A stretch of DNA of 64,000 nt, from contig NZ_CP070977.1 of assembly GCF_018417535.1 (NCBI RefSeq), positions 2,480,001 to 2,544,000 on the forward strand, read 5' to 3'. This document shows, one piece after another, positions 41,548 through 44,516 of this stretch. The notes under the pieces were generated by a model, which worked only from the letters and a program-made list of their open reading frames with translations, did no database searches and had not been told where the DNA came from. The translations under genes were made by a program, and so were the position numbers. The DNA comes from Burkholderia pyrrocinia. GTDB taxonomy: Bacteria > Pseudomonadota > Gammaproteobacteria > Burkholderiales > Burkholderiaceae. The stretch's first letter is position 1. Each line of letters begins with the position of its first letter.

Positions 41548-42840
41548 GTGGACCAAATTCCCTTATGGGCGCAAATCGGCGCCGTCTTCCTGCTTCTCCT
41601 CTGTTCCAGCTTCTTTTCCATTTCCGAGACTGCGATGATGGCGCTCAATCGCCATCGGCTGAAGCATCTCGCCGGCCAGGGTGCGCTCGGCGCGAAAACG
41701 ACGCAGGGGCTTCTCACGCGGACTGACCTGCTGCTCAGCGTGATCCTGATCGGCAACAACCTGTTCAACACGATCATCCCGGTCCTCACGACGTCGCTCG
41801 CGCTTCATACGTTCGGCCGCAACAACCTCGCGCTGTCGATCGCGACCGGCATCGTCGCGTTCCTGATCATCGTGTTCGCGGAAATCGCGCCGAAGATCGT
41901 CGGCGCGACCTTCCCCGAACGCATCGCCCTGCCTGCGAGCCTCGTGATCGCACCGCTGATGCGCGTGTTCAAGCCGGTCGTCTGGTTCGTCAACGCGCTC
42001 GCGAACGGCGTACTGTGGGTGCTGCGCATCAACACGAAGAAGGGCCGCGACCAGCGGATGTCAGCCGACGAGTTGCGGGCCATCGTGCTCGAGTCGAGCA
42101 GTTTCATGCCGACCAAGCACCGCAGCATCCTGCTCAACCTGTTCGACCTCGAGAACATCACGGTCGACGACGTGATGGTGCCCCGCCGCCAGATCGAGTC
42201 GCTCAACTTCTACGCACCGCTCGACGACGTCCTGCACGAGCTCGAAACCTGCTATCACAACCGGCTCGTCGTCTACGAAGGCGACATCGACAAGGTGCTC
42301 GGCGTGCTGCACGTGCGCAAGACGCTCACCGCGCTGCACAACCAGGAGTTCGATCGCGAAATGCTGCGCTCGCTGCTCGCCGAGCCGTACTACGTGCCGT
42401 CGGGCACGCCGGTGGTTCAGCAGCTCCAGTTTTTCCAGGAGACCCGGCAGCGTACCGCGCTCGTCGTCAACGAGTACGGCGAGCTCGAAGGGCTCGTCAC
42501 GCCCGAAGACATCATCGAGGAGCTGATCGGCGAATTCACGACCTCGATGCCGCGCAGCGAACGCGCGGGCGGCTGGGACGAGAACGGCGAATGCATCGTC
42601 TCGGCCAGCATGCCGCTGCGCGAACTGAACCGCTGGCTGCTCCTGAAGCTGCCGACCGACGGGCCGAAGACGCTGAACGGGTTGATTCTAGAAATCCTCG
42701 AGGAAATTCCGGAAGACGACGTGTGCCTGAAAATCGGCGACGTGATGCTCGAGGTGATGCGCAGCGACGACCAGGCCGTGCGCACCGTCAAGCTCTTCAA
42801 GCCGCGCGGCACGCGCACCGCACGCGCCGCCCTGCGCTAG
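41548..42840 (+). CDS. CorC/HlyC-type CNNM transporter (DUF21, CBS, CorC_HlyC domains)
   Basis: This 430-residue inner-membrane protein has an N-terminal DUF21/CNNM domain with about four membrane segments (1-145), a CBS-domain pair (about 200-330, NRLVVYEGDIDKVLGVLHV) and a C-terminal CorC_HlyC domain (about 345-425). Such proteins are linked to magnesium or cobalt efflux; the older hemolysin label is misleading. The start is GTG at 41548. Its TAG stop (42838-42840) lies on the left boundary of the putative MITE. Confidence 0.88.
   Translation: MDQIPLWAQIGAVFLLLLCSSFFSISETAMMALNRHRLKHLAGQGALGAKTTQGLLTRTDLLLSVILIGNNLFNTIIPVLTTSLALHTFGRNNLALSIATGIVAFLIIVFAEIAPKIVGATFPERIALPASLVIAPLMRVFKPVVWFVNALANGVLWVLRINTKKGRDQRMSADELRAIVLESSSFMPTKHRSILLNLFDLENITVDDVMVPRRQIESLNFYAPLDDVLHELETCYHNRLVVYEGDIDKVLGVLHVRKTLTALHNQEFDREMLRSLLAEPYYVPSGTPVVQQLQFFQETRQRTALVVNEYGELEGLVTPEDIIEELIGEFTTSMPRSERAGGWDENGECIVSASMPLRELNRWLLLKLPTDGPKTLNGLILEILEEIPEDDVCLKIGDVMLEVMRSDDQAVRTVKLFKPRGTRTARAALR
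42837..42839. repeat. Left copy of putative target-site duplication (CTA)
   Basis: CTA, repeated at 43152-43154. The first two bases of the CorC/HlyC stop codon TAG lie in it. Three bases alone are weak evidence. Confidence 0.4.
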
Positions 42841-43151
42841 GCCTGTTCCCGCCAATAACGGGCTTGCGCTGGCCCCCAGAAGGGCCGAGCGCAAGGAATG
42901 CGACGACCAACGGGAGTCCCTGTGGGACGAAGCGAATACTCGACGCGTATTCGCGAGGAGCATGACGCGGCGATCGGCCCTTCTGGTGGTCAGCCCGACG
43001 AATGAACTTTTCCAAAACAGGGGAACGCGCGTTGCCGGCCGTATTGCGGCGTCGCGCGTCGCTTGTTCGGCTCGGCCAAACGGCGCTCCTCACTCGTTGC
43101 ACTCCGACCGGCAAGCCACGTTCGCAAGCCCGTTATTGGCGGGAACAGGCC
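42840..43151. mobile_element. Putative MITE with 29-bp terminal inverted repeats
   Basis: Positions 42840-42868 and 43123-43151 are perfect 29-bp inverted repeats starting GGCCTGTTCCCGCC. They are flanked by CTA on both sides (42837-42839 and 43152-43154), or CTAG if the shared G is counted, as a target duplication would be. The 312-bp interior has no transposase, but further inverted repeats (42876-42888 with 42974-42986, 13 bp perfect; 42932-42938 with 42948-42954) and imperfect extension of the ends. It sits between the CorC/HlyC stop and pilB. Transposition in trans by an insertion-sequence transposase is inferred. Confidence 0.6.
42876..42986. repeat. Internal 13-bp inverted repeat in the putative MITE
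   Basis: CCAGAAGGGCCGA at 42876-42888 pairs perfectly with its complement at 42974-42986, enclosing a smaller hairpin 42932-42938/42948-42954. Confidence 0.65.
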
Positions 43152-43238
43152 CTAGCCGAACGGCCGACTGCCGGAGCCGCCCGCGACGCGCGACCATCTG
43201 CGGGTCACGTTCAACAGGCGGCCGACGCGCCGGCTCAC

Positions 43239-44516
43239 ATGCATTTCCCTCCCCCCGGGGCACCGCTGCGCACGCAGCCGACGCCCGCCCGCTCCGATGC
43301 GTCGCCCGCCGCCGCACCCCACGCGCTCGACGCGGCCCAGCTCGACGATGCCCCGGCCGTGCGGCTGCTGACCGACACGCTTCACGCGGCACGCGTGCGC
43401 GACGCATCCGACATCCATGTCGAACCGTTCGAAGCCGGCTGGCGCATCCGCCTGCGCATCGACGGCGTGCTGCACGAACATGCGCGGCCGCCCCTGCACC
43501 TGCGCGACGCGCTCGTCACACGGATCAAGGTCCTCGCGCGCATGGACATCGCCGAGCGGCGCCTCCCGCAGGACGGCAGGCTGCGCATCGCGATCGACGG
43601 CGGCACGCGCGGCGACTACCGCGTCAGTTCGCTACCCACACTGTTCGGCGAAAAGCTCGTGCTGCGGCGCCTCGAAACGCTGCCGCCCGATCTCACGCTC
43701 GCCCGCCTCGGTTTCGACGCGCAGCAGGCGGCCGCGATGGAGGCGGCGATACGCGCACCGCACGGCCTCGTGCTCGTCACGGGCCCGACCGGCAGCGGCA
43801 AGACGCTGTCGCTCTACTGCGCGCTGCAGATGCTCGATCGCGACGCGCACAACGTCTGCACGGTCGAGGATCCCGCCGAGATCCAGCTCGACGGGATCAG
43901 CCAGGTCGGTGTCGCCGAAAAGGCGGGGCTCACGTTCGCGACGGCACTGCGCGCGCTGCTGCGGCAGGATCCGGACATCATCATGGTCGGCGAGATTCGC
44001 GATGCGGAGACGGCCGACGTCGCGATCAAGGCCGCGCAGACCGGCCATCTCGTGCTGTCGACGCTGCACACGAACGACGCGCCGGCCGCCGTCGCGCGGC
44101 TGCTCGACATCGGCGTCGCGCCGTACAACCTCGCGGCCGCGCTGCACCTCGTCACCGCTCAGCGTCTCGTCCGGCGCCTGTGCGTCGCGTGCCGCGTGCA
44201 CTCGGACGCACCGGCGCACGTGCTGCGGGAAGCCGGCTGCGACGCGGCGGCCCTGGCAGCCGGATGGCGGCCGTTCGTCGCGCGCGGCTGTTCCGCGTGT
44301 CACGGTATCGGCTATCGCGGCCGTATCGGCCTGCATCAGACGATGCCGGTATCGCGCGCGCTGGCGGAACGCATCGTCGCGCGGGCGAGCGTCGGCGAAC
44401 TCGCGCAATGCGCGGCGGCCGAAGGCGTGCGCAATCTGCGCGACGCGGCCTTCGCGCGCGTCCGGGACGGCACGACGAGCATCGCGGAAGCCGTCGCCGC
44501 GACACCGGCGTCGTGA
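43239..44516 (+). CDS. pilB: Type IV pilus assembly ATPase PilB (GspE family, short form)
   Basis: PilB-type ATPases power pilin polymerisation. From ATG 43239 the protein is 425 residues: a RIRLRIDGVLHE/IKVLARMDIAERRLPQDGR N2-like part, Walker A TGPTGSGKT near 181-188, DPAEIQLDGI, Walker B/Asp box LRQDPDIIMVGEIRD, AQTGHLVLSTLHTND, and a zinc tetracysteine (CVACR and CSACHG). The usual N-terminal MshEN domain of PilB (about 560 residues in total) is absent. An upstream in-frame start at 43002 gives 504 residues, but those extra residues read through the putative MITE, so 43239 is preferred; neither start has a good ribosome site. Confidence 0.8.
   Translation: MHFPPPGAPLRTQPTPARSDASPAAAPHALDAAQLDDAPAVRLLTDTLHAARVRDASDIHVEPFEAGWRIRLRIDGVLHEHARPPLHLRDALVTRIKVLARMDIAERRLPQDGRLRIAIDGGTRGDYRVSSLPTLFGEKLVLRRLETLPPDLTLARLGFDAQQAAAMEAAIRAPHGLVLVTGPTGSGKTLSLYCALQMLDRDAHNVCTVEDPAEIQLDGISQVGVAEKAGLTFATALRALLRQDPDIIMVGEIRDAETADVAIKAAQTGHLVLSTLHTNDAPAAVARLLDIGVAPYNLAAALHLVTAQRLVRRLCVACRVHSDAPAHVLREAGCDAAALAAGWRPFVARGCSACHGIGYRGRIGLHQTMPVSRALAERIVARASVGELAQCAAAEGVRNLRDAAFARVRDGTTSIAEAVAATPAS

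Follow-up and report, generated by a model that had tools for sequence, protein, structure and literature searches.

A MITE family of Burkholderia and related genera with a likely IS5-family partner, represented by a copy in the stop codon of a putative CorC/HlyC gene

In the window analysed here, a stretch of 64,000 nucleotides from the Burkholderia pyrrocinia contig NZ_CP070977.1, a 313-bp repeat element lies between a putative CorC/HlyC gene and a putative pilB gene, both named after the initial annotation. The features of the locus are as follows, in window coordinates and with the basis of each assignment in brackets.

41548–42840, forward strand: putative CorC/HlyC gene, with the insertion in its stop codon (open-reading-frame list)
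42838–42839, no strand: left copy of the duplicated 2-bp target TA, which also forms positions one and two of the CorC TAG stop (empty sites in relatives)
42840–43152, forward strand: whole element, subfamily A, 313 bp (repeat search, family comparison, empty sites)
42840–42868, forward strand: left terminal inverted repeat (family end GGGCCTG..., here one G short)
42868–42892, forward strand: hairpin 1, 5′ arm (88% complementary to the 3′ arm)
42907–42930, forward strand: 24-bp stretch in the hairpin 1 loop, absent from the genome's other three A copies (by eye)
42970–42994, forward strand: hairpin 1, 3′ arm (inverted-repeat search)
43023–43038, forward strand: hairpin 2, 5′ arm (family alignment; 13 of 16 positions pair with the 3′ arm here, by eye)
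43108–43123, forward strand: hairpin 2, 3′ arm (family alignment, mapped by eye)
43123–43152, forward strand: right terminal inverted repeat (repeat search, family ends)
43153–43154, no strand: right TA of the target duplication (sequence, relatives' sites)
43239–44516, forward strand: putative pilB gene (ATG common to many relatives without the element)

The initial annotation had described a MITE-like element of 312 bp with perfect 29-bp ends and further stems inside. Both sets of stems were recovered by an inverted-repeat search, which paired 42840–42868 with 43123–43151 (29 nt, 100% complementary, 254 nt apart) and 42868–42892 with 42970–42994 (25 nt, 88% complementary). The extent needed a small correction, as comparison with the family kept the left boundary and moved the right one by a single base to 43152, giving 313 bp. 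Family ends mostly read GGG[CT]CTGTT; relative to these, the left end of this copy is one G short, and its right end, extended to 43152, reads GGCCC. The element is flanked by TA on both sides (42838–42839 and 43153–43154). Its left edge, said to touch the CorC stop codon, indeed overlaps it, the TAG being 42838–42840, and the short gap before pilB, previously put at about 85 bp, measures 86 bp between the right TA and the ATG at 43239. A longer pilB frame opens at 43002, within the element, and the ATG at 43239 is the one common to many element-free relatives. The interior of the element is crossed by open frames, including those that begin at 42962 and 43002. We infer that this interior is non-coding, because the lengths within the family (283, 287, 310 and 314) differ by numbers that are not multiples of three. 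Folded as single-stranded RNA, positions 42837–43155 reached −182.5 kcal/mol, and none of 100 dinucleotide shuffles folded as well (z −9.3).

The DNA around the CorC end was located in all 65 genus genomes, and the site was read in each of them. A full element was present in one only, that of B. pyrrocinia; two others carried end-only remnants between the same TAs (37 bp in G003 and 31 bp in G021), and the remaining 62 had no recognisable element there. Among these 62, 43 fit the pattern of an uninterrupted site and 19 do not, some being off by 1–2 bases. Empty sites run straight on, typically as CGC-TAG-CCGAACGG, and the difference between a filled and an empty site is the element plus one TA. 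Empty sites in relatives had been proposed as a check in the initial annotation, and they were thus found, together with a clean TA duplication. This comparison shows that insertion took place at the TA within the CorC stop and duplicated that TA. Because the ends of the element begin with G after the TA, as GGG in the family, TA and the first G of the element together rebuild TAG, so that CorC keeps its stop.

The element belongs to a dispersed family, and the further copies with matching ends that had been suggested as another check were encountered both in the B. pyrrocinia genome and across the genus. The former holds ten full-length copies, four of subfamily A (L001–L004) and six of subfamily B (L005–L009 and L020, L006 having decayed ends), and lone ends besides. 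In an end-pattern search of 61 genus genomes, A ends were found in 51 and B ends in 40, with matching A or B ends in 53 when both tables were united. Among the matches listed for named genomes, full copies occurred in Burkholderia, Paraburkholderia and Trinickia; one full copy was seen by eye in a Caballeronia plasmid record, and a match in a Cupriavidus necator plasmid covered no more than one end together with part of a hairpin. A search of phage sequences for the element returned no match. No description of this family was recognised in the literature searched, which includes few subscription journals, and the excerpts of PMC4603805, PMC5760752 and PMC3189936 consulted make no mention of this repeat family.

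From the collected loci, 154 copies were extracted, of which 140 were full (280–341 bp). TA stands on both sides of 81 of the 140; we read its absence from one or both sides of the other 59 as decay. Copy lengths step by about 27 bp, and in the copies listed these steps are explained by a mini-repeat that sits in the hairpin 2 loop at either one or two positions. This 27-bp mini-repeat was seen at two element points, both in hairpin 2 loops (e.g. in L007 and L020). Its 23-base core occurs at 12 places in the B. pyrrocinia genome with up to three mismatches, two of them inside elements and others elsewhere in the genome (L432–L434 and L436–L442); several core sites sit in another repeated intergenic block. 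Lone ends were recorded at 34 loci, six of which were read, and looked remnant-like within 1.5 kb. Such end-only remnants would be left by later deletions. Remnants of about 31–37 bp recur (L113, L010, L293 and L294), and L113 and L010 have a GGCCC terminus, as a deletion between short repeats would produce.

Use of stop codons as targets was assessed at the flanks of the copies. A first test based on open frames alone gave no clear excess of stop codons at 123 TA flanks, with 39, 37 and 36 flanks in the three frames at 100 codons and 30, 22 and 21 at 190 codons. A codon-position filter was chosen after this cruder test, and under its settings 20 of 77, 14 of 53 and 14 of 48 frames ended at the junction. 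Grouping of 117 copies with flanks of 600 bp gave 88 independent sites. At the strictest setting, 48 coding frames had their end no more than 250 bp from such a site, 14 exactly at the junction and 34 elsewhere; as the filter followed the first test, this excess is provisional. The element side facing the gene was split 11 versus 3, which is too weak for a claim.

Subfamilies A and B share a common plan, consisting of a 29-bp terminal stem, hairpin 1, a spacer and hairpin 2. Identity between the A and B consensus sequences is highest in the loops (0.78 and 0.88, the latter in hairpin 2). The stem of hairpin 1 comes next with 0.74, then the terminal stem with 0.64 and the spacer with 0.52, and the stem of hairpin 2 is lowest with 0.44. 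Among the copies of one subfamily, variation is greatest in the spacer (0.30 in A and 0.21 in B). The loops show 0.144 and 0.149 in A and 0.082 and 0.082 in B, and the stems 0.072, 0.116 and 0.174 in A and 0.105, 0.030 and 0.021 in B. Overall, loop variation is not below that of the stems, and the loops are thus not plainly more constrained.

A candidate mobiliser was sought by searching for transposases of the IS630 type (PF13358) and of the IS5 type (PF13340) in 31 genomes each, followed by scanning of 50 transposase loci (20 IS630-type and 30 IS5-type) to locate the outer motif and any inverted ends. Only one of the 50 loci, L365, had the outer end of the element on both sides of the transposase. 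There, 826 bp with the ends GGGTCTGTTCACATTC / GGGTCTGTTTACATTC lie at a TA inside CTAG around an IS5-type gene, the open part of which spans 188 aa and matches NCBIfam NF033580 (transpos_IS5_3) at 4e-54. Compared with subfamily B, the ends of this insertion sequence agree in 14 of 14 outer bases on one side and in 13 of 14 on the other, which supplies an insertion sequence with matching ends, as the initial annotation had suggested looking for, and with the TA/CTAG target. Ends like those of L365 recur in further copies of the insertion sequence. Relatives with 76–93% identity, annotated as IS5 family transposase, were found on plasmids of Burkholderia multivorans, B. aenigmatica, Pandoraea faecigallinarum and Paraburkholderia phymatum; for comparison within the IS5 family, we take the relevant group to be IS427-like. 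Of the other 29 IS5-type loci, eight were bounded by other ends with duplications of 3 bp, and in the remainder no convincing ends were seen. Two IS5-type (DUF4096) frames of about 150 and 136 aa lie roughly 27 kb apart on opposite strands (G000:C1:1351509 and 1379034), and, by eye, this pair recurs in many of the 31 genomes among the matches listed, as if vertically inherited.

The 826-bp IS5-family insertion sequence is the likely mobiliser of the element. Since the two share only 13–14 bp and have unrelated interiors, the element did not arise from this insertion sequence by deletion. At the threshold of E 0.001, 24 of 65 genomes matched the insertion sequence, several by short or weak pieces only, and the B. 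pyrrocinia genome gave no match. Against a role for IS5, genome G048 has the insertion sequence and no copy that fits the A or B end patterns. Longer, autonomous versions of the element itself were rejected: by the end patterns, the B. pyrrocinia genome has no pair more than about 310 bp apart, and four copy-rich genomes have none beyond about 320 bp by the exact outer motif.

Several properties bear on the classification of the element. It is short (313 bp) and has no transposase gene, it possesses terminal inverted repeats, it occurs in several dispersed copies, it has a TA target duplication with an empty site in relatives (uninterrupted in 43 of 65 genomes), and, in subfamily B, its ends match those of the candidate 826-bp insertion sequence as the autonomous element. 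At 313 bp it is too short to encode an IS5-type transposase, which only the proposed partner has. We consider it highly probable that it is a MITE, i.e. a non-autonomous, gene-less DNA transposon moved in trans by an IS5-family transposase, this judgement applying to the full explanation with arm copying, as described below, included. The transposase of the insertion sequence of about 826 bp, whose outer end and CTAG/TA target coincide with those of the element, would have moved the element in trans. The copies in the B. pyrrocinia genome are probably stranded, since this genome appears to lack the insertion sequence.

Changes in the stems were classed against the commonest Watson–Crick pair in 49 A and 62 B sequences. 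Counted as distinct changes, 92 were two-sided and preserved Watson–Crick pairing, 4 were two-sided of other kinds, and the one-sided ones comprised 25 to G-T, 23 to A-C and 23 transversions. When counted by sequence, one-sided changes to G-T numbered 55 versus 30 to A-C; 27 of these 55 cells fell at one subfamily B pair, without which the counts were 28 versus 30. The A terminal stem alone gave 10 distinct G-T types versus 4 A-C types. At 12 orthologous sites, the terminal stem had undergone 13 two-sided and 12 one-sided changes. Furthermore, the interior was reversed between the same flanks at three orthologous sites, one of them among the 12 (L159/L234; L093, L174, L186/L259; L241, L248/L267). 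The orthology test omitted six grouped copies on flank similarity, namely L234, L259 and L267, which are inverted; L255, which is at the threshold; L158, which is unrelated; and L175, which was lost through its misoriented partner L097, the pair L175/L097 not being counted as inverted.

These counts suggest copying of DNA from arm to arm rather than selection on RNA. With less certainty than its transposition, the element may fold on itself, whereupon DNA polymerase would copy one arm from the other by template switching and the arms would stay matched; such switching would now and then invert the interior. The consulted parts of PMC8604942 describe template switching between arms that homogenises the arms and inverts spacers, and those of PMC8794818 describe template switching that maintains hairpins. 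That the family is self-repairing foldback DNA, with arms copied from each other and drifting as pairs and with an interior that flips, all without selection on RNA, is a tentative and somewhat doubtful reading, which is weakened by the G-T count by sequences and by the loop diversity. Alternatively, the differences between orthologous copies may have come about through repeated insertion into a site or through conversion by a further copy. Absence of a wobble preference would also be expected if a DNA hairpin were under selection.

It is unlikely that the element is mainly a structured RNA, such as a regulatory RNA, a terminator or an RNase III processing site, selected at gene ends. The strong fold (z −9.3) and the covariation of the stems agree with that idea, as does the hairpin 2 loop, which is 0.88 identical between the A and B consensus sequences against 0.44 for its stem, but within the subfamilies loop variation is, overall, at least as high as that of the stems. 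An RNA helix under selection would be expected to show more G-T, and there is at most a weak sign of this here: the preponderance of G-T over A-C by sequences (55 versus 30) has no counterpart among distinct types (25 versus 23) and owes 27 of its 55 cases to one pair. At E ≤ 1, Rfam gave a single weak match (15.1 bits, the gathering score being 42), which falls beyond the element at 42637–42648, and a simple scan of 42600–43400 returned no terminator-like or promoter-like site. Moreover, the element is missing from the CorC site in 62 of 65 genomes, and at one site its interior was found in either direction.

Movement by an IS630-family transposase, which also uses TA, is very improbable. The element shares the TA duplication inside CTAG with IS630-like elements of the genus (L349 and L357), but the ends of the latter read GTGTTC[CT]GTCCCA[AG]AA, unlike GGG[CT]CTGTT; DDE_3 was found in 11 of 31 genomes, and the exact outer motif never flanked a transposase in the 20 loci scanned, a scan that may miss decayed ends. 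At L349 (1086–1374 and 1375–2528), an IS630-like element with the ends GTGTTCCGTCCCA[AG]AA abuts a B copy, with a TA in common.

The IS110-family transposase inside two copies from G025 hardly comes into consideration as the element's own engine. These copies of 1425 bp have intact ends and each carry a 318-aa IS110 transposase, but a third copy of the insertion sequence (L134), with identical CT-flanked ends, is surrounded by DNA other than the element, which contradicts this role; the point in the hairpin 2 loop is the same in both elements, as a later insertion would give, and a relative at E 1e-60 is found in only 9 of 65 genomes. The two IS621-like IS110 insertions span about 1227–2363 in L116 and about 1067–2203 in L117, with CT dinucleotides on either side, and the PDB matches of the transposase are ISCro4 (9.1e-38) and IS621 (1.2e-34).

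As a MITE with a likely IS5-family partner, the element can be compared with several known systems. Correia/NEMIS, ERIC and RUP elements of other hosts are TA-flanked, intergenic and strongly folding, and are likened to it by their description, not by sequence. REP elements with IS110/IS621-like insertions are known, and two copies of the present family similarly have an IS621-like element inserted in a hairpin loop. REPs are short single palindromes of 20–40 bp (PMC3733652, in the part consulted), in which they differ from the element. MITEPsy1 of Pseudomonas syringae is given in the consulted part of PMC3189936 as family 'IS5?', with 100 bp and 18-bp ends. Like MITEPsy1, the element is short and gene-less, with inverted-repeat ends, several copies and a possible link to IS5; unlike it, full copies measure 280–341 bp and have two long inner hairpins. 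With the 826-bp insertion sequence, the element has in common the outer bases and the TA duplication inside CTAG, but the insertion sequence carries a transposase, the shared end is short and the interior is unrelated.

The element is thus a member of a MITE family with a likely IS5-family partner. For a repeat with full copies in Burkholderia, Paraburkholderia, Trinickia and, by eye, Caballeronia, the analysis supplies a family together with its outer end, its target and a candidate mobiliser. The apparent start of the pilB frame is shifted into the element, which constitutes a trap for gene annotation. Ends that rebuild TAG would let a transposon take stop codons as harmless landing sites. 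The paired arm changes resemble the covariation of an RNA, the wobble signature being weak at most, and this is relevant to functional RNA calls based on covariation. If copying between arms is true, the family would be a natural record of bacterial template switching and a warning that covariation by itself is no proof of a functional RNA.
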